From: Candidatus Kuenenia stuttgartensis
Lineage (GTDB): Bacteria > Planctomycetota > Planctomycetia > Pirellulales > UBA1268
Direction: 5' to 3'
DNA length: 37,486 bases
Assembly: GCA_945877135.1 (NCBI GenBank)
Contig: CAMCQY010000022.1
Coordinates: 1-37,486, forward strand
In this document: positions 11,798-31,064 of the stretch, piece by piece
Layout: each line of letters starts with the position of its first letter
Position numbering within the stretch: the stretch's first letter is position 1
Program-made: the position numbers and the translations under genes
The notes under the pieces: model-generated
Told to the model about the DNA's origin: nothing
Databases searched by the model: none
Seen by the model: the letters and a program-made list of their open reading frames with translations, nothing else

Positions 11798-12736
11798 ATG
11801 ACCGCCGCCCGCCCCAACCATTGGCTGCTCGCAGCGCTGTTTCCGCGGTGGGCTGTAGGCTGGCTGCTGGTCGCGGCCACGAGCCTGACGAACGACGCGG
11901 CTGCCGTGCAGCCGACGCCTGACGCCGCAGCCGGCCTGGCACGATCGCGGGTCTTCTCACCGGCCGAGGCGACCAGGCTCGTCGCCGCCCACCACAGCGG
12001 GCCGCTCACCGTGGATGTTCCAGCGATCGACGCCGAAACGGCGGCGATCCTTGCGGCGTGGGAGGGCGATCTTGCCATCGATCATCTCACGACACTCGAG
12101 CCCGCGGTAGCGGCAGCGCTGGGACGGCACCGCGGCCCCCTGTCGCTCTGCGGCGTGACAACGCTCTCGGTAGAGTCCGCCCGAGGGCTGGCAGGACACA
12201 GAGGGATTCTCTGGCTCGACGGCCTCCCGACGGTCAGCCCGGCGGCCGCTGGCGGGCTGGCGGATCACCAAGGACCACTGGTGATGAACGGCGTGGTGGT
12301 CCTGTTGCCGGCCGCGGGAATGGCTCTGGGGCGTCACGCCCACTGGCTCTCGCTTGCGAGACTCGACACAGTCGACCGGCCGCTCGCTCGGAGTCTCGCC
12401 AGGCATTCAGGCCCACTGTCGCTTGACGGCATCGTGCAGTTGACACCCCCCGTGGCGGCCGAACTCGCCACGCTCAAGCATCCGCTGTCGTTGGGTGGTG
12501 TTGTGAGCCTCGCGCCGCAGACGGCGGCTGCCCTTGCCGATCACCGTTCTTTGCTGGCACTCCCAAGGGTCTTTACCCTGCCGGTCGCCGTGGCTCGCAG
12601 CCTTGCCGATCATCAGGGCACGCTCTCCCTGCCGGCCGTCGACAGGCTGTCGTATGACGCTGCTGCCGCCCTCGCGCTGCACTGGAATCCACGGGCATTC
12701 AATGCCTTGGAATTCAGCGGTTCGCAGGACCACTAG
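11798..12736 (+). CDS. Exported protein made of 23-residue LRR-like repeats
   Basis: Signal-peptide-like N-terminus, then about 10 consecutive 23-aa units with consensus xTLSPxxAxALAxHxGPLSLxGV. Confidence 0.7.
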   Translation: MTAARPNHWLLAALFPRWAVGWLLVAATSLTNDAAAVQPTPDAAAGLARSRVFSPAEATRLVAAHHSGPLTVDVPAIDAETAAILAAWEGDLAIDHLTTLEPAVAAALGRHRGPLSLCGVTTLSVESARGLAGHRGILWLDGLPTVSPAAAGGLADHQGPLVMNGVVVLLPAAGMALGRHAHWLSLARLDTVDRPLARSLARHSGPLSLDGIVQLTPPVAAELATLKHPLSLGGVVSLAPQTAAALADHRSLLALPRVFTLPVAVARSLADHQGTLSLPAVDRLSYDAAAALALHWNPRAFNALEFSGSQDH

Positions 12737-15700
12737 CCGGGCTCGTCGACTGCCTCTCGCCATGATTGAGAACCGCCTCCAGACCGGCGGCATCGTTGAC
12801 GAGCGAGAGGAAGGACCTCTGTAGCCTGCTCGGCAGAGGCCGCGGCGTTGCGTGGCCGCGAACGGACGCCCTCCCCATTACCGCTGCAGCGTGCGACGTG
12901 TCCCCTTCGGCGACCGCAGACCGTGCAGCCAGCCATTCCACGCGGGCAGCGACCGGATGGCGTGGCGGCAGCGTGACGGCAGCGGCAGATGCGGCTGAGA
13001 CTGCCTCAGCCGCCTTGTCAACCCGCCCGCCTTCCCACCAGAGGGCAGCAAGGTTGGCGGCCGCCGCCACGGCGGCGGCGTCTGTGGTGGACGGCTTCAT
13101 CTGTCTGACGTACGGCAGCAGATCCTGTCCGGCCTGATCGGCCGTCGCTTCCCACTGCGGGTTGGCCGCCGCCTGCTGCGCCATGGCCAGCACCACCAGA
13201 TCGTCGGCCGCCGACGAGCGGGAGGAGACCTGACCCAGACTTACCAATCGATTGGCAATGTCGACCGCTCCCGCGGCATCCCCCGACAGGCGTCGCGCCT
13301 GCGTCGCAGCGATGAGGATTCCCCTGATGAGCCCAGGCCCCAGCGGCAGTCGACTGCCAAGCGCGACACAAAGGTCATCCGACTCGTCCCGAGCGGTCTG
13401 CAGATCACCCACGTCGCTGAGCAACTGGACCGCGGAAACGCGTCCTGCCAACGCAGCGACCGCAGCCGGCAACGGTATGCGGTCCAGTTCGCCGACTGTT
13501 TTCAAGAGGCCGCGGGCCTCCTCGAGATGAACGGCCGCTGCCCCCGGTTCGCCCCGGCCCAGATCGATCCTGGCCAGCAGCAGCAGCGGCCTGGCCGCCC
13601 CCTGTGGATCGACGGCAGCATTCTTTCGGATGGTTGTCAGTGCCTGATTGGCCAGCGGCTTCGCCCGCTCGTATTCGCCACACTCGGCCAACAACGTCGC
13701 CAGACGAAACGCCGCATCGGCTACCTGCGGGTCGGTAGGGCCAAGCAATTTCCACCGTGTGCTGCCGAGCCGCTCGAGCAGTTTTTTTCCCCGAACCAGG
13801 TCCCCCTGAGAAATGGCGATCGTGGAGCTTTGGTCGAGCACGTCGGCGACGCGCCGGCTCGACTCACCAGAATCTCGAACGGCGAGGGCAAGCGCTTCCT
13901 CGCAGAACATGATCGCCTCCTGCCCGTTACCGATGACATGGGAGCTCCAGGCGGCGAGCAGCAACTGTTCGACGGTCAGCGCTGCCGGCGCTTTGGTTCC
14001 CAGCGTCCGCTGACGGGCCACGGCGGTCCGCAGCTGAAGCCCGCTTCGCGAGGCGGCAACGAACGGGGATCGCTTCACCGGCGTTGCCGCAGGAGACGCG
14101 GCTGAAGGTGGCCCCTCGTCGACTCGCTCCGCAGCCGGCGGGCTGGAACGCGTTTCGGCTGGATCGACGGCGGCGGGAACACCCCCCTCGGCCCCATTGG
14201 CAAGCGTCTCCAGGTTGCCGAGGTAGACCATCATGTTTTCCAGCCCCTGTCGGGCAGCGCCAGGCTTTTTCTTCTTTTTTGGATCACCGCCGTAGAGCCT
14301 CGTCGCCGCATCGAGGGCCCGCCGAGCCTTGTCGGCCTGGGCGCTGACGGCCGTGCCGGGGGCCAACGTGGGACCTTCATCCTGGCCCACGGCAGCCGGG
14401 CCAGCGGTCTGGTCCGGGCCTGTCTGCGTCCGTGAGACGGCGGCCCGTCCAGCGGTGTCGGCCGATTTTTTGGCAAGGATCGCGGCAAAATCGGAACCTG
14501 CGGTCGACGGGGCACGAACGGCGGCGTTCCTGCCACCCCTCACCCCATCCCCCGACTTGCCCGCCACCCGGACCTGCTCCTGACCCGCTCGCTCCGCGCG
14601 AAGCCGGGCGGCCACGGCAGCGGCATGTCCGGCTCCCCATACCGGCTGCACAAGCGCGGCCGACTCGTTCAGGATTTGCTGCATGCGGCTTGTCTGGCCA
14701 CGCGCCTGACTGAGTGTCGCCGAATGCCTGGCGATTCCAGCTATCAAAAGCGGGTCTGTGGGTTTCTTCTTTTCGGCAGCCTCCAGGGCCGCCGCCAGCC
14801 ACCTGGCAGCCGGCTCGAACTCCCGACGTTCCGCGTGCAGATCGGCCAGCCGACACAGATCACCAACATCGGCATCCGCCGCCAAGTTTTTCTGAGACTC
14901 ACTCTCACGCACCTCTGCCAGCAGCCGCGCCGCGGCGGCAGTATCGCCCCGCCTTGCCTGGATCGCTGACTGTTTCAGCAGGTAGCACAACACCCGAGGA
15001 TGGGCCCGCCCAAACGTCCGTTGATCGGCATCCACCGCACGCTGCACGAGTTTCTCGGCCTCTTCGAACTTCCCTGCCGCCTCCTGGGCCAGCGCCAACT
15101 GATACATCACGATGCCAGCCAAGGCCGGCTGTGATACCTTCACAAGGTTAGCCGCCTGCAAGACGCGGGATCGCACCGCCGCGGCCGATTCGTCCTGACT
15201 TCCCGCCGGCAGCAGCTCCTCCAGCAGTTCGAAGGCGTGGAGCAGGCTGCGGTCGTCCAGGAGCGGTCCGGTGCGTACCAGCGTGTCGAGGCAGCGGAGT
15301 GCGGCGTCGCGATCCCCCACAGCGACGGCGACATTTGCCGAACCACACAACGCCTCGCGAAGCGCGGCGATCTGCGGCTTGGTCGCCTTCGCTATGGCGG
15401 TTGCGACCTTTGCGGCCACCAGGTCATCGATCTCCGACGCCCGCCGCAGATCTCGCTGCCCACGGGCAGCGTCGGCCAGACGGACCGCCGCCACGAGCGT
15501 GGTCGGATGGCCGTCGCCGAGTGCTGTGGCGGCGATTTCGAGCCCGCGACTGTAGAGCGGGACGGCGCTGGACCAATCGAGCGTCTGCGGCCGCATGTCG
15601 GCCAACGCGATGAGCATCCCCGTCCGTTCGGCCCGCTCAGGCCCGCTCAGGCCCGCCTTGGGATCGTCCAATGCCGCAATCGATTCGCGGAGTAGTTCGA

Positions 15701-18074
15701 CCGCCTCTTCCCGCTGACCATCTCGGTATTTCTGCCATGCCGAGGCCGTGACTCCAGCGGCATCCTTCAGCCTCGCCGACCGCGCGTCGGCGGGGAGGGG
15801 CGATGCTGCCGCTGCCACGCTAGGTCGCGAGGGAACGGCCGCACTCGGCTTGGCCGGCCCGCCGGGATCGGCCTTGGAAAGCCGCCTCTCGGCAGCCTGC
15901 AGGCTCGCCGCTACCTCTCGTGCCTTGGCAAGGTTGGTCTCAGACTCCTCATCGACCGTGAGCATCTTCTTCAGCTTTGACGTATCGACGGCAACATCCT
16001 CGCCGCCGCCAGCATCGCCGACCGACTTACCCATGGCTGCCTCGCCTGCCACCGCCCGCTCGAGGTATCTGCGGGCGATTTCGGCTTCGCCGCGGGTCTC
16101 ATGAATCTGGGCAAGCTTTTTGAGAAGTTTGATCGTGTCTGTCTGCGGCGTGGCCGGGTCAGCGTCGTAGGCGGCCAGCAGCCGGGTCATCAGCGGCAAG
16201 GCCGCATCGTTCTGCCGCAGCGCCAGTCGCACCAGCGCCAGCGGCTTGAGCGTCGCGATCGTCACTGGGTGATCGGGACCGACACTCGCCTCCCAGATCG
16301 CCAGACCGCGAGCGAGCGACTCCTCCGCCTGCTCGTTAGCCCCGATCGCACGGTAGCTGACTGCCAGCGGCACCAGAATGGCGGCCACCTCGGGGTCGGT
16401 AGCCGATCGCACCTGCTCCACGATCTCGATCGCCTTCTGGTAAAGCGCCACCGCATCGGGGTGGTTCCCGGCCGCCTGCCGGGCATTGGCCAGCCTGACC
16501 ATCACGTCGGCGACCCGTTCATGCTGCTGCCCAAACTGCTGCTGCCGGAGACCGATCAGGGCAGCGCGGGTTTCCATCGCCCGATCGGCGTTCCCCGTCC
16601 GCTCCTCGAGCCCCGCCACCCCCTCCACCAAAGCGCAGAGGTCTCCCTCGAAGGCATCACTTCGCCGCGCGACGCCCCGGTCGATGAGCGTCTTGAGAAT
16701 TCCGGCCGACGTAGCGAGGTCTCCCGCCTGTGCTGCACACGCACCCGCCTCGGCAAGCAGGGCGAGCGTTTCGGCATGGAAGGGGCCACGGACTCGTTTT
16801 GACACCGCAAGCGCATGGTCGAGCAACGGCAACGCCGCTTTGGTGTCGCCACTGCCCAGCAGACAACGCCCGAGGCCAGCCTCGTCTGCGGCCCGGTCTG
16901 GATGATCGGCACCGAGTAATTTGGTGTCGAGTTCCAGGGCCCGTCGAAAGAGTTCGGCCGCCGGGCCGAGATCCTGACCCTCGAGATGCACCTCGGCCGC
17001 CGCCCGCAGGGCTGCCGCCGCCTGCGGATCGTCACGGGCAACGAGCGGCTCGATCGCCGACACGATCGGCCCGCAGGCTGCCTGAGCCGCAGCCGTGTCG
17101 CCCCGCATCCCATCAAGCTTCAACAGCAGCAACGAGTCGATCAACACCGCCGCATGGCCTTCACCCAAGAGCTTCCGATCGGTCGACCGCGCCCGCTCGA
17201 GAGACACTCCCGCGGCGTCGAGGTCTCCGCATTCGGCCTGCAGTTCAGCCAGTTGCCGTAACGCACTCGCGACGGCAGGTGGATCGGCGCGGGCCCGTTC
17301 ATGGGTCGTGATCGCCGTGGCCAGCGGCTCGATCGCGGCTGCCGCATTGCCCTGCCAGGCCTGGGCCCGCGCGAGTAGCGTGGCGGTCGCCAAGACCTCC
17401 GCCAGCCGGCCTGCCCGCTGCTGCCGTCGCTTCAGCAACTGCTCCAATTCCGCCTGACCGGCGGCGGACTCACCAAGCCCGAAGTGCACCTCAGCCAACC
17501 GCTCCAGTGCCGCCTCTGTCGACGGATGACCTGGTCCGACCGACTTGCCGAAGAGTTCGACCGCCTTGGTGAGCAGGTCTGCAGCCGGCTCGAATATCCC
17601 CACACCCATCTGCGCTCTGGCTAGCAGCACAAGCGCGGCGGCAGTCTCCACCGGCGAGACCTCCCTGCCTTCGGCCGTCAGAGCATCGCGCAGGGCGACC
17701 GCTTTCCGCAGTGGGTTCTGAGCCTCTGCACACTGACCGTTCTCCAGGAGGATCAGACCAGCCAGATCGAGCACGGGCAGCGTATCGGGATGGTTGTCGC
17801 CAAGCGTCTTCTTGATCAGCGTGTTGGCCACCCGCAGGTCGGCGAGTGCCTCGGTAATCTGTCCGGCCTCCCGCTTCCGCTGGGCGTCGCGCAGGCACTG
17901 GGCAACCCGCACGCCAGTTTCCAGGTCAGCCTCGCCCGGGGCTGCGGCTGGCGGCTGGGCAGCCGCATCAGAAATGGTCATCGCCAGCAGACAGCAGCAC
18001 CCGGCAGCAAGCTTCGACCAACTGGCTGCCCGGGCCGAGACCGTCTTGCGGATTGTCGTGATCGGCGCGATCAT
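12714..18074 (-). CDS. Large exported TPR-repeat protein (kinesin-light-chain-like TPRs)
   Basis: 1786-aa ORF; signal peptide (LAAGCCCLLAMTISDAAAQ); repeated units such as 'LGDNHPDTLPVLDLAGLILLENGQCAEAQNPLRKAVALRD' and 'LGADHPDRAADEAGLGRCLLGSGDTKAALPLLDHALAVSKRV'. Confidence 0.85.
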   Translation of the reverse strand: MIAPITTIRKTVSARAASWSKLAAGCCCLLAMTISDAAAQPPAAAPGEADLETGVRVAQCLRDAQRKREAGQITEALADLRVANTLIKKTLGDNHPDTLPVLDLAGLILLENGQCAEAQNPLRKAVALRDALTAEGREVSPVETAAALVLLARAQMGVGIFEPAADLLTKAVELFGKSVGPGHPSTEAALERLAEVHFGLGESAAGQAELEQLLKRRQQRAGRLAEVLATATLLARAQAWQGNAAAAIEPLATAITTHERARADPPAVASALRQLAELQAECGDLDAAGVSLERARSTDRKLLGEGHAAVLIDSLLLLKLDGMRGDTAAAQAACGPIVSAIEPLVARDDPQAAAALRAAAEVHLEGQDLGPAAELFRRALELDTKLLGADHPDRAADEAGLGRCLLGSGDTKAALPLLDHALAVSKRVRGPFHAETLALLAEAGACAAQAGDLATSAGILKTLIDRGVARRSDAFEGDLCALVEGVAGLEERTGNADRAMETRAALIGLRQQQFGQQHERVADVMVRLANARQAAGNHPDAVALYQKAIEIVEQVRSATDPEVAAILVPLAVSYRAIGANEQAEESLARGLAIWEASVGPDHPVTIATLKPLALVRLALRQNDAALPLMTRLLAAYDADPATPQTDTIKLLKKLAQIHETRGEAEIARRYLERAVAGEAAMGKSVGDAGGGEDVAVDTSKLKKMLTVDEESETNLAKAREVAASLQAAERRLSKADPGGPAKPSAAVPSRPSVAAAASPLPADARSARLKDAAGVTASAWQKYRDGQREEAVELLRESIAALDDPKAGLSGPERAERTGMLIALADMRPQTLDWSSAVPLYSRGLEIAATALGDGHPTTLVAAVRLADAARGQRDLRRASEIDDLVAAKVATAIAKATKPQIAALREALCGSANVAVAVGDRDAALRCLDTLVRTGPLLDDRSLLHAFELLEELLPAGSQDESAAAVRSRVLQAANLVKVSQPALAGIVMYQLALAQEAAGKFEEAEKLVQRAVDADQRTFGRAHPRVLCYLLKQSAIQARRGDTAAAARLLAEVRESESQKNLAADADVGDLCRLADLHAERREFEPAARWLAAALEAAEKKKPTDPLLIAGIARHSATLSQARGQTSRMQQILNESAALVQPVWGAGHAAAVAARLRAERAGQEQVRVAGKSGDGVRGGRNAAVRAPSTAGSDFAAILAKKSADTAGRAAVSRTQTGPDQTAGPAAVGQDEGPTLAPGTAVSAQADKARRALDAATRLYGGDPKKKKKPGAARQGLENMMVYLGNLETLANGAEGGVPAAVDPAETRSSPPAAERVDEGPPSAASPAATPVKRSPFVAASRSGLQLRTAVARQRTLGTKAPAALTVEQLLLAAWSSHVIGNGQEAIMFCEEALALAVRDSGESSRRVADVLDQSSTIAISQGDLVRGKKLLERLGSTRWKLLGPTDPQVADAAFRLATLLAECGEYERAKPLANQALTTIRKNAAVDPQGAARPLLLLARIDLGRGEPGAAAVHLEEARGLLKTVGELDRIPLPAAVAALAGRVSAVQLLSDVGDLQTARDESDDLCVALGSRLPLGPGLIRGILIAATQARRLSGDAAGAVDIANRLVSLGQVSSRSSAADDLVVLAMAQQAAANPQWEATADQAGQDLLPYVRQMKPSTTDAAAVAAAANLAALWWEGGRVDKAAEAVSAASAAAVTLPPRHPVAARVEWLAARSAVAEGDTSHAAAVMGRASVRGHATPRPLPSRLQRSFLSLVNDAAGLEAVLNHGERQSTSPASGPANR
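15631..15656. repeat. 10-bp tandem repeat (gcccgctcag x2.6) inside the TPR gene
   Basis: Read directly: gcccgctcag gcccgctcag gcccgc. Confidence 0.9.
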
Positions 18075-18937: not shown

Positions 18938-20125
18938 TCAAAATCGTGCGGCCAGAAGTGGTACGAGCGTCGCTATGGCCTTATCGATCTCCGCCTCCGT
19001 CGTTGTCCGCCCCACGCTCAGCCGCACCGCGCTTTTGACCACGGCTGGTTCGAGTCCCATCGCCACCAAGGCCGGCGCCGGCTCGCTCGACCCGCTGGCG
19101 CAGGCGGTCCCCGTCGCCAGGCAGACGCCGGCGAGGTCCGCGGCCATCGCCAGTGCCTGCCGGTCGAGGCCGGGGAAGGCCAGTGTGGCGATGTGAGGGC
19201 ACCGCCTGCCTTGGGCGGCGATCACCACTGCCGGGATGTCGGCGTGACGGGCGGCGGCCACCAGCCTCGATTCGAGCCGATCGCGGAGTCCAGCCACCTG
19301 ACGGGCGGTCTCGTCCCGATCCGCGACCGCCAACTCCATTGCCCGGGCGAATCCCACCGCCAGCGGCACCGCCTCCGTGCCACCTCTGAGCCCCTGTTCC
19401 TGGGTGCCGGCCTGCACCGGCTCGATCGCCACGTCGCCGCGGATCAGGAGACCACCGATGCCTCGCGGGCCGCCAAACTTGTGCGGAGCAAGGGCGAGGG
19501 TGGCTGCCCTGAGAGTGGAAAAATCCATCGTGAGAAGACCGGCTGCCTGCGTGGCGTCGATATGCACGAGCACGCCGTGTGGGTTCACGGCAGTTGACAG
19601 TGCCGCAATGAACCCTGAGTCTTCGATCGACCCCGTCTGGCCGCAGACGAGCGTAAGCGATGCGATCCGTGGACCGCTGACACGAGCCGTATCCGCGGCG
19701 GCAATCACCGCGGCGGTCGCAGTGCCATCCACCGGGTCGAGTGTCGCCTCGTGGAGGGTCCACCCGCGGCGGCCGGCTGCCTGCACCGCGCTGACACTGC
19801 TGGCATGATCGCGGCGTGACCAAAAGAGGTGCCCAAAGGCCGGTGCTGCGGCGGCCATGCCGAGGATGGCCAGGTGATTGGCCTCACTGGCTCCGGAGGT
19901 GAATACCAGCCGGTCGCGGTGGGCCGGCCCCGATCGGGCTCCCAGGGCTGACATGATCCGATCGCGGGCGTCTTCGAGCAGACTGCGGGCCGCCCGGCCA
20001 AGGGAGTGCTGGCTCGACGGATTGGCCTGGGCCAATGCCTGCGCGGCGGCGATCGCAGCTGCCACCTCCGGGTGGAGCGGCGTGGCGGCGGCATGATCAA
20101 GATAAAGAGACGCGGACGTGCTCAT
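18938..20125 (-). CDS. Cysteine desulfurase (NifS/IscS family)
   Basis: YLDHAAATPLHPEV, TSGASEANHLA, HIDATQAAG, APHKFGGPRGIGGLLIR and active-site region 'CLATGTACASGSSEP'. Confidence 0.9.
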   Translation of the reverse strand: MSTSASLYLDHAAATPLHPEVAAAIAAAQALAQANPSSQHSLGRAARSLLEDARDRIMSALGARSGPAHRDRLVFTSGASEANHLAILGMAAAAPAFGHLFWSRRDHASSVSAVQAAGRRGWTLHEATLDPVDGTATAAVIAAADTARVSGPRIASLTLVCGQTGSIEDSGFIAALSTAVNPHGVLVHIDATQAAGLLTMDFSTLRAATLALAPHKFGGPRGIGGLLIRGDVAIEPVQAGTQEQGLRGGTEAVPLAVGFARAMELAVADRDETARQVAGLRDRLESRLVAAARHADIPAVVIAAQGRRCPHIATLAFPGLDRQALAMAADLAGVCLATGTACASGSSEPAPALVAMGLEPAVVKSAVRLSVGRTTTEAEIDKAIATLVPLLAARF

Positions 20126-20187
20126 CCCGACAGCCTAGCAGCCTCTTTTGGCACGCTGAAAAAGTGTGTACCACGATCTGCCGCCGA

Positions 20188-21210
20188 TCACCGCCCCACG
20201 AGCGCCGCCATCAAACGGTCGATCTCGGCGGCAAGCCCCGCATCGAGCGACCGCCGCAATTCCGTGCCGCGGATCCCATGCATGACGGTCGTGTGATCGC
20301 GGCCTCCGAAGGCGTTGCCGATCGACTGCAGGCTCTGCGTTGTCAGCCGCCTGGCCAGATACATCGCCAGCCCGCGGGCCTGTGAGACCTGCCGGCAACG
20401 GGAGGGGCCGACTAAGTCGGCCGCCGTCAGCCCGTGATGCCTGGCCGCGGCGTTGATCACCCGCCGGAGCGATACCTCCCGGCGGCCGGCGAAGGCGTCG
20501 CCTGTGCCCTCGTACCGGGTCGTACCGACCGGCGGCATCGACACCACGAGGCCGCCCGACAGTCGCGACGCCAGCGACGGTTCCAAGAGCGTACAGGCGA
20601 TCGGATGGGTTCGCAGGGTTGCCACAAAGGCCGTGCCGGTAGCGCTGGCTGCGTCGAAGAGATGGGCGAGCGCTCGCTGGGCATCCCACGCTGTGATCTG
20701 TTCGACACCGTCGATCATGATCAGCCGTGACGCGACAAACCGCATATGCAGCCGGTCGATCGTATTTTGTGACAGGGCCGTCGTGAGGTCACGTCCAAGG
20801 GAACGGCCATCCCACATGATCGCGGCTGACGATGTCGGGCTGCCTGCTGCGGTCGGGCTGTGCTGCACGAACCATTCTGCCAGCAGCCGTGACTTCCCCG
20901 AACCGGCCGGCCCTACGATTACAAGCGGAGCGTAGCCGGAGAGACTGCCGCGATCGCCCCCGGCCGCAATCCCCGTATTCCGAATGCCGGCGGCCACCGC
21001 TTCCAGGGCATGGTGCACGAGCCGGTGAGAGAGCGCTACCCGAGCTCTGGTCTGATCCTTGGTCTGATCCTTGGTCTGATCTTGGAACAGCCGAGGGCCG
21101 GCTGACGATTCGTGCGTGGCGACAGCAGTCACGGGCAACGTCCCGGTGGGGGAACGCGGCCTCCATGCCGACGCAGTTGGAAACGAAACGGGGAATGAAC
21201 GCTCATCCAA
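20188..21210 (-). CDS. dnaA: Divergent, reduced chromosomal replication initiator DnaA
   Basis: C-terminal signature 'LARRLTTQSLQSIGNAFGGRDHTTVMHGI'; Walker A GPAGSGKS; Walker B-like RLIMIDGVEQI; 'LASRLSGGLVVSMPP' aligns with DnaA 'LKSRFGWGLTVAIEPP'; adjacent to dnaN. Confidence 0.85.
   Translation of the reverse strand: MDERSFPVSFPTASAWRPRSPTGTLPVTAVATHESSAGPRLFQDQTKDQTKDQTRARVALSHRLVHHALEAVAAGIRNTGIAAGGDRGSLSGYAPLVIVGPAGSGKSRLLAEWFVQHSPTAAGSPTSSAAIMWDGRSLGRDLTTALSQNTIDRLHMRFVASRLIMIDGVEQITAWDAQRALAHLFDAASATGTAFVATLRTHPIACTLLEPSLASRLSGGLVVSMPPVGTTRYEGTGDAFAGRREVSLRRVINAAARHHGLTAADLVGPSRCRQVSQARGLAMYLARRLTTQSLQSIGNAFGGRDHTTVMHGIRGTELRRSLDAGLAAEIDRLMAALVGR
21048..21083. repeat. 12-bp tandem repeat (tggtctgatcct x3) within dnaA
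   Basis: Two exact copies plus one with a single mismatch; encodes DQTKDQTKDQT. Confidence 0.95.
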
Positions 21211-21305
21211 GCAGGATCAGGCTGCTCAGGCTACCGGGACGGTCTCCGCGAAAAAAGGGTTGGCAAAAAAAGCGATACCAGACTGCACGCGCCAGCACAG
21301 GCCAG

Positions 21306-21327
21306 CAGGATTCACACAGGATTCACA
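21306..21327. repeat. Exact 11-bp tandem repeat caggattcaca x2
   Basis: Read directly; each copy contains ATTCACA, matching the ATNCACA core of a DnaA box. Confidence 0.9.
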
Positions 21328-21352
21328 AAGATGCTCGCCCCTCGGGGGATGC

Positions 21353-21374
21353 TGGCACGCTGTTGGCACGCTGT
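21353..21374. repeat. Exact 11-bp tandem repeat tggcacgctgt x2
   Basis: Read directly: gc tggcacgctgt tggcacgctgt tgg. Confidence 0.9.
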
Positions 21375-21906
21375 TGGTTGAGGGATGGGAGAACCGCCCA
21401 ACGCGAGCCGACATTTTCGAAGACACATCGCTGGCAGGCACCGGACGCCGCCCTGGCAGCCAGACCCCAGCCGGCCAACAGCACGACCACCCGTTTCAGA
21501 TACCTACACAACCGTTCCTGCACGGAGAAACAACAAGGAACTACCAGGTTGTGCACAGCGAAGAGCTGGCTCAAAAAACCAGATAAAACCTGATTTTTCC
21601 GAAGAAAAACTGTTTCTGAGCTGACTCGCAGCGTTCTTTCAGTTTCTGCATCAGCTGAAAAACCCCTTTCGCTGCTCCTTCTACCGACTCCTGTATTTCT
21701 CCTCATTTTCTTCAACCAAAGAGAGAATCAAAGGAGAACCACCGAGGGTTTGGATCACTGGCACGCCCGCCTCGGCGGGGGCCTGCCAGATGGTCCCGCG
21801 TCGGGTACACTGACAGTCTTCGATATCGAGCCAATGACCGTATCGCCGGCCGTCGTTCCGACGGGTTTTTCGGGTGCCAGTCCCTGGAAAGGACAGCCGT
21901 TCTTCG

Positions 21907-23031
21907 ATGAAAGTTCGTCTTACCCGCGAGCCATTGCTCGCAGCCCTTCAGAGTGCGTCGGCAGTCGTGCCTGCCCGCTCGCCCAAGCCCGTGCTCTCCA
22001 ACGTGAAGCTCGAAGCTCAGGGAACATCGGCTGTCCTCTCCGCAACCGATCTGGAGGTGGGGATCAGGATCGATCTGGAGGGTGTCGAGGTGGGGGCGGC
22101 TGGGGCCGTGCTGCTGCCGAGCGGCCGACTGATGGCGATTGTTCGAGAGAGTCAGCCCGGGACGGTTTTCGACATTCAATCCGATGGCACCGCAGCCGTG
22201 GTCAAAGCCACCCGCAGCGAGTTTCGTTTGCCGGCGGAGGATCCGCTGGAGTTTCCGTCAGTCGCCACCTTCCCATCGGAGGCCTGCTTCGAACTCTCCC
22301 AACCCCTCGTGCGGGAACTGGTCAGGCGGACGGTTTTTTCCACTGACAACGAATCGAGTCGCTATGCCCTCGGGGGAGTGCTCCTCGAACTGGCGGCTCA
22401 GGGATCTGCTGCGAGCGTGATCGCCGTCGGCACGGATGGGCGACGGCTGGCCAAAATGGAGGGACCGGCCGCGGTCAAGGACGGCGTGCCGGCCGAGGCG
22501 CAGCCGATCGTGCCAGCCCGGGCCATGCAACTCATCGAGCGGTGTCTGGGGGATGCCAGCATGCCGGTGCAGGTGGCGGTGCGAACCAGCGAGATCCTTG
22601 TGAAGACTGGGCCGACCACGATCTCGGCACGGCTTGTCGAGGGACGTTTTCCCCGCTGGCGTGATGTGTTTCCTGATCGGCCGGACGCGGCGAAGGTCAA
22701 CATCGTGGCAGGTCCACTCCTCGTGGCAGTCCGCCAGGCGGCGATCGTCACCAGTGAGCAGTCAAAAGGGGTCGATTTCGCGTTCGATCCTGGGCAACTC
22801 GTGCTCTCGGGCCGTTCTGCCGAAAGCGGTGAAAGCCGGATTGAACTGCCGATCGAACATGCCGGCCAGGCGGTGAAAATCAAGCTTGATCCGCGGTTTA
22901 TGAGCGAATTTCTTCGAGTGCTCGACGGCGCCGCCACGGTGACTGTGGAACTCACCGATGCCCAAAGCGCCTGTGTCTGTCGCACGGATGACGGCTACGG
23001 CTACGTGATCATGCCGCTGGCGGCCGATTAG
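21907..23031 (+). CDS. dnaN: DNA polymerase III beta subunit (sliding clamp)
   Basis: MKVRLTREPLLAALQSASAVVPARSPKPVLSNVKLEAQG...DLEVGIRIDL...TDGRRLAKMEG...VEGRFPRWRDVFP. Start at 21907 in ORF 21874..23031. Confidence 0.95.
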   Translation: MKVRLTREPLLAALQSASAVVPARSPKPVLSNVKLEAQGTSAVLSATDLEVGIRIDLEGVEVGAAGAVLLPSGRLMAIVRESQPGTVFDIQSDGTAAVVKATRSEFRLPAEDPLEFPSVATFPSEACFELSQPLVRELVRRTVFSTDNESSRYALGGVLLELAAQGSAASVIAVGTDGRRLAKMEGPAAVKDGVPAEAQPIVPARAMQLIERCLGDASMPVQVAVRTSEILVKTGPTTISARLVEGRFPRWRDVFPDRPDAAKVNIVAGPLLVAVRQAAIVTSEQSKGVDFAFDPGQLVLSGRSAESGESRIELPIEHAGQAVKIKLDPRFMSEFLRVLDGAATVTVELTDAQSACVCRTDDGYGYVIMPLAAD

Positions 23032-23546: not shown

Positions 23547-26069
<2,523 letters not shown>

Positions 26070-30826: not shown

Positions 30827-31064
30827 TTCCCATGCAAGCCCGAAGCGCAAGCGAGGGAATACGGGCCTGATTGCTATGTGATGGACGCGATTTCCCTTGC
30901 TTGCGCTGCGGGCTTGGATGAACACGGGATTCCCATGCAAGCCCGAAGCGCAAGCGAGGGAATACGGGCCTGATTGCTATGTGATGGACGCGATTTCCCT
31001 TGCTTGCGCTGCGGGCTTGGATGCATGGGGGATTCCCATGCAAGCCCGACCCGCCAGCGAGGGA
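30827..31064. repeat. Tandem array of BIME-like hairpins, 103-bp period, about 2.3 copies
   Basis: Two 94-bp copies (30827-30920, 30930-31023) read as identical, plus a partial diverged copy at 31033-31064. Confidence 0.9.

Follow-up and report, generated by a model that had tools for sequence, protein, structure and literature searches.

The DnaA-box code is usually regarded as nearly universal, and origin finders look for TTATCCACA. In Escherichia coli, oriC contains arrays of low-affinity DnaA sites (Rozgaja et al. 2011, cited in PMC4285127): the 9-mers stand in two opposed arrays and stronger boxes serve for nucleation, a layout shared by the origins discussed here. In the basal unwinding system (BUS) of Bacillus subtilis (PMC8287927), a DnaA box and a short spacer are followed by a trinucleotide repeat that lies next to AT-rich DNA; this layout recurs in many origins of the order studied, where the box reads TTATCRACA and the trinucleotide is TAC on the dnaN strand. 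Residue D433 of DnaA is reported to contact base 7 of the DnaA box and to be highly conserved across bacterial classes (PMC8235120). We describe a planctomycete locus that is likely an oriC at which two DnaA paralogues, differing in specificity, would each have their own sites.

The spacer upstream of dnaN and its neighbors

The window, a stretch of 37,486 nucleotides, is contig C22 of a planctomycete genome present in 240 contigs. A spacer of 696 bp (21211-21906) separates the gene of a short DnaA paralogue (20188..21210, minus strand) from dnaN (21907..23031, plus strand; TIGR00663, 180.8 bits with a cut-off of 137.65), the two genes being divergent from each other. A profile search placed gyrB downstream of dnaN (23556..26069, plus strand), and the spacer adjoins this dnaN/gyrB block, as in the gene context by which a bacterial oriC is recognized. 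The cumulative GC skew of the window is lowest here, at 21-22 kb. In another genome of the same family (G005), the skew switches sign beside dnaN, to within a 20-kb block boundary: the fifteen 20-kb blocks to the left of dnaN are all negative, the next is positive and the later ones are weak. Skew sampling of one complete genome put the sign change 0.8-1.1 Mb from dnaN, which does not fit. Because of the gene context, the skew minimum of the window and the skew switch in G005, the spacer looks like an origin, and the candidate oriC proposed in the preliminary description is thereby supported; it is very probably a planctomycete chromosome replication origin.

Apart from the start of dnaN, conservation in the spacer is strongest in a block that contains GTCGGGTACACTG (21777..21820, plus strand) and is likely the dnaN promoter. 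In the window's genus, a cysteine-desulfurase gene and the short dnaA (18938-21210) point away from dnaN, and in other genera of the family both are co-directional with it. Rfam and tRNA scans of the 37-kb window returned no matches. Elsewhere in the window, a TPR-repeat protein of 1786 aa is encoded at 12714-18074 (minus strand), and a tandem repeat at 30827-31064 (2.3 copies of a 103-bp unit) contains CCCGAAGCGCAAGCGAGGGA, an element that resembles a REP-type palindrome and has 19 copies genome-wide, with 0 in the reversed control.

The short DnaA, 340 aa as called, has no domain I and consists of an AAA+ remnant and a domain IV with GGRDHTTV. It matched Pfam Bac_DnaA_C (84 bits) and Bac_DnaA (26.4 bits), both above cut-off, and scored 108.1 bits against the full-length initiator equivalog TIGR00362, below its cut-off of 343.9. 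The start of the gene is uncertain because a run of five G (21148-21152), longer than in three congeners, carries one extra G that puts a congener-conserved ATG (21166, minus strand) out of frame; this could be an assembly or sequencing error, or a real frameshift or early decay. Comparison of the conserved part with congeners gave dN of 0.17-0.25 and dS of 0.93-1.37, and the rest of the gene is under purifying selection. A 12-bp repeat within the gene (21048-21085), not found in congeners, encodes DQTK repeats.

Phased sites and the two DnaA paralogues

On the minus strand of the window, altered boxes with an 11-bp period occupy 21350..21377 (CCAACA at 21372-21377 and 21361-21366, and a degenerate CCAGCA at 21350-21355). 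This array includes the second of two tandem repeats taken up below and holds the sole YCRACA-N5-YCRACA of the 37-kb window. The plus strand has boxes at 21398..21413, CCAAC (21398-21402) and CCGACA (21408-21413), the latter in a block conserved across most of the genus, and the site search also found a single CCAACA at 21475..21480. The minus array is clear, and the plus side amounts to two boxes 10 bp apart. A search of the window's genome found the two-box pattern 10 times, as often as in the reversed control; one pair is therefore uninformative alone, and the argument is one of position and comparison.

That comparison covered related genomes, with first-order Markov shuffles as controls. 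Upstream of dnaN, same-strand YCRACN pairs exactly 11 bp apart were present in 27 of the 34 family genomes and in 11 of 12 genera (shuffles of the 34: mean 1.4, maximum 3); 7 of the 34, and about half of the genomes sampled from the order, have no strict pair. The YCRACA motif was chosen after looking at congener alignments, and a word-free autocorrelation, independent of this choice, gave a peak at 11 bp in the family spacers (z of 8.1, or 7.2 minus the window's genome) and also at 22 bp. Spacers of the order Pirellulales, which were fetched after the motif had been chosen and so provide independent support, contained 89 YCRACA against 23 in shuffles, with an 11-bp peak of z 6.9. Their sites form opposed 11-bp arrays on the two strands, the minus array following the short gene and the plus array lying about 100 bp further, and the lineage thus has the E. 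coli-type layout. When 60 genomes were searched in full for three phased YCRACA, 5 of the 8 matches fell in the spacer upstream of dnaN, with 0 in the reversed control. The pattern YCRACANNTTTTCCAC was rejected as not origin-specific, few of its 29 whole-genome matches being at dnaN. A free EM motif search of the family spacers returned A-rich and T-rich composition only, and phase-based tests were used instead.

The canonical box TTWTNCACA is absent from both strands of the window spacer, as first described, and no cluster of such boxes was found. The site already pointed out near 21549 is TTGTGCACA (21549..21557, plus strand), one mismatch from TTWTNCACA; three congeners have a canonical-type box, TTTTCCACA, at the same place, of which it is a degenerate counterpart. 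At the level of the order, a near-canonical TTTTCCAC box is often in phase with the YCRACA arrays, and YCRACA 9-mers stand 11 bp upstream of 7 of 21 TTWTCCAC anchors, the commonest offset. Beyond the boxes, an AT-richer stretch at 21571..21720 (50-63% AT per 60-bp window, against 28-48% upstream of 21541) is a candidate unwinding region. Many origins of the order have a TTATCRACA box ahead of a DnaA-trio-like TAC-repeat tract, and in several genomes TTATCGACA or a similar sequence lies ~25 bp ahead of a TACTACTACT tract. No clear trio tract was found in the window spacer, where TTCTACCGACTCCTG (21679-21693) is at most a weak counterpart.

A genome-wide search with Bac_DnaA_C gave two matches, one in the gene next to dnaN and one in an open frame of 533 aa on contig C23. 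The latter encodes a full-length DnaA (L002, 202-1803; 77.3 bits) with Walker A and B and a domain I-like N-terminus. Nearly every genome of the order has two DnaAs, the shorter beside dnaN and the longer unlinked; across the class, most families have two and one family often has a single DnaA. Several genera of the window's family are without the short gene beside dnaN, and in one such genome DnaA_C also matched a second time, on a different contig. In a maximum-likelihood tree, the two types form separate ancient clades, one of 33 short DnaAs (support 97) and one of 29 long DnaAs together with two Phycisphaerae sequences (98). The nearest named relatives of the window's long DnaA include Blastopirellula marina and MAGs labelled Pirellulales, and the order is called Pirellulales here on this basis; the nearest of all, at 63% identity, comes from a MAG labelled Candidatus Kuenenia stuttgartiensis, a label that looks wrong.

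The paralogues differ in the recognition helix. By alignment with solved DnaAs, the short DnaA keeps E. coli R399, D433, H434 and T435; its last 104 residues found no match in a PDB search, and a longer stretch matched solved DnaAs. Against E. coli domain IV (1j1v), the full-length DnaA has D433 changed to S and T435 to S, with H434 kept, and so does not carry the canonical set of recognition residues. In the order, the helix of most short DnaAs is RDHTT or RDHST and that of most long ones RSHST, a few of the latter having R or K and one a deletion. In one public-genome search, the residue at D433 was S, R, N, T, Q or A in 24 planctomycete matches, and all 56 non-planctomycete matches kept D. 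The preliminary description had supposed an altered DnaA that possibly co-evolved with the boxes. A DnaA with changed base-contacting residues does exist, but it is the unlinked full-length paralogue and not the neighbor. The VSQARG segment that had been taken for the alteration is ordinary in the same alignment with solved DnaAs (Aquifex DnaA has TSEARK there) and changes no base-contacting residue.

We propose that the core of the origin consists of initiator-binding 9-mers ending in YCRACA, on two strands in opposed arrays, whose 11-bp period corresponds to 9-mers 2 bp apart; the fullest form, TTATCRACA, is one base class off TTATCCACA. The likely reader of the arrays is the full-length DnaA, whose helix has S in place of the near-universal D433; this protein, encoded elsewhere, probably reads the conserved array of unusual sites. 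The short DnaA beside dnaN, with its canonical helix, likely reads the single TTTTCCACA-type box; in many origins of the order this box shares the 11-bp register of the arrays, and in the window it is degenerate. Filaments starting from the array sites would then open the DNA beyond. Computation establishes the pattern of the sites, their phase, opposed strands and conservation, the two old DnaA clades and the changed residue; binding of DnaA to the sites, the pairing of paralogue and site and this filament-driven opening are what we infer.

The origin could also be real with no second specificity, the short DnaA, or both proteins indiscriminately, binding the YCRACA arrays as weak sites. YCRACA is indeed close to the canonical box, and both E. 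coli (PMC4285127) and Helicobacter pylori (PMC8235120) have low-affinity arrays in which degenerate sites are separated by 2 bp. We regard this as unlikely. Among the family genomes, YCRACN arrays occur in 13 of the 19 that have the short gene next to dnaN and are kept in 14 of the 15 that do not, whereas TTWTCCAC is present in 13 of the 19 and in 1 of the 15 (Fisher 0.0004, with relatedness ignored and genomes that are not independent events). Moreover, each order has its own uniform array site, which varies from order to order along with the helix of the long DnaA. A second lineage (f23) has the same layout with the site CGCGCCA (31 against 1.5); in 11 cases this site precedes TTTTCCACA by 11 bp, and the long DnaA of the lineage carries the helix KTHST in place of RSHST; such uniformity is unlike that of merely degraded canonical boxes. 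In a further lineage (f22), N occupies the D433 position in the long paralogues, as in the short ones seen, and its spacers showed no YCRACA enrichment. The boxes are changed mainly at position 6 and the reported D433 contact is at position 7, and residue and base are thus not related one-to-one.

It is improbable that the 11-bp arrays are operators of another regulator, of dnaN or of initiation, rather than DnaA boxes. Their place upstream of dnaN would suit such a role, but in many genomes they are in phase with canonical-type boxes and ahead of DnaA-trio-like tracts, and opposed arrays on two strands suit an origin better than a promoter operator.

The two tandem repeats

Both exact 11-bp tandem duplications of the preliminary description were confirmed at their positions. 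The unit CAGGATTCACA is exactly duplicated at 21306-21327, where it provides two copies of GGATTCACA (plus strand; two mismatches to TTWTNCACA), and TGGCACGCTGT at 21353-21374, with a periodicity that extends to 21377 (2.3 copies, 100%). Among 3000 first-order Markov shuffles of the 696-bp spacer, 2 had an exact 11-bp tandem duplication and 0 had two, and both duplications are beyond chance expectation. Replication slippage without function would account for the first repeat, which is unique to the window's genome, and for the extra upstream unit of the second, which is also specific to it. As an explanation of both duplications it is very improbable, since the core of the second repeat (TGTTGG-N5-TGTTGG-like, reading CCAACA-N5-CCAACA on the minus strand) is kept in four congeners in the spacer alignment and the same pattern recurs across 11 of the 12 genera. 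In the same alignment all four congeners have a gap or unrelated sequence at the first repeat, which is therefore unlikely to be a functional element and is probably incidental and lineage-specific. Conservation in close relatives, named beforehand as a test, thus fails for the first repeat and holds for the core of the second; helically phased, co-oriented sites resembling non-canonical DnaA boxes, as had been predicted, are present and conserved, but in the second repeat, on the minus strand, and not in the first. That the two GGATTCACA copies are working DnaA boxes read by an altered DnaA next door is hardly credible: their core ATTCACA fits ATNCACA and their spacing is 11 bp, but four congeners lack them and the neighboring DnaA has a canonical helix.

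Comparison with described origins

Across this class of planctomycetes, two ancient DnaAs of different specificity may co-assemble on one composite origin: the full-length DnaA would occupy phased lineage-specific arrays, the short DnaA a canonical box that anchors them, and box and helix would have changed together between orders; we hold the chances of this wider reading to be evenly balanced. The full-length DnaA has lost D433, a residue whose conservation is described as spanning bacterial classes, and the origins show a change of the box to match. If binding confirms it, canonical, YCRACA and CGCGCCA sites would form a natural series for the co-change of initiator and site, two DnaAs would be seen to act at one origin, and planctomycete origins would become predictable. 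No description of such a two-DnaA planctomycete origin was found in the open-access literature, subscription journals being outside the scope of the search.

The oriC of Thermotoga maritima, with 12-mer boxes AAACCTACCACC, likewise pairs a non-canonical box with its own DnaA (PMC4285127). The sequence differs, and the box types are mixed here and not there. To our knowledge, T. maritima has one DnaA per genome. More than one DnaA in a genome of the PVC superphylum is also the case for chlamydial DnaA1 and DnaA3, whose box specificities were not reported, the ChIP being of too poor quality (PMC4989314). In contrast to the B. subtilis BUS, the trinucleotide tract is hardly recognizable in the window itself. 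The boxes of Epsilonproteobacteria, with the core TTCAC (PMC5043019), offer the same combination of a lineage-specific box and changed helix-5 residues, but here the long paralogue has lost D433, whose conservation was described as extending over bacterial classes (PMC8235120). The E. coli arrays, finally, differ from those of the planctomycete origins, whose sites share a single recurrent consensus specific to the lineage, YCRACA, with a second DnaA of altered helix as putative reader.
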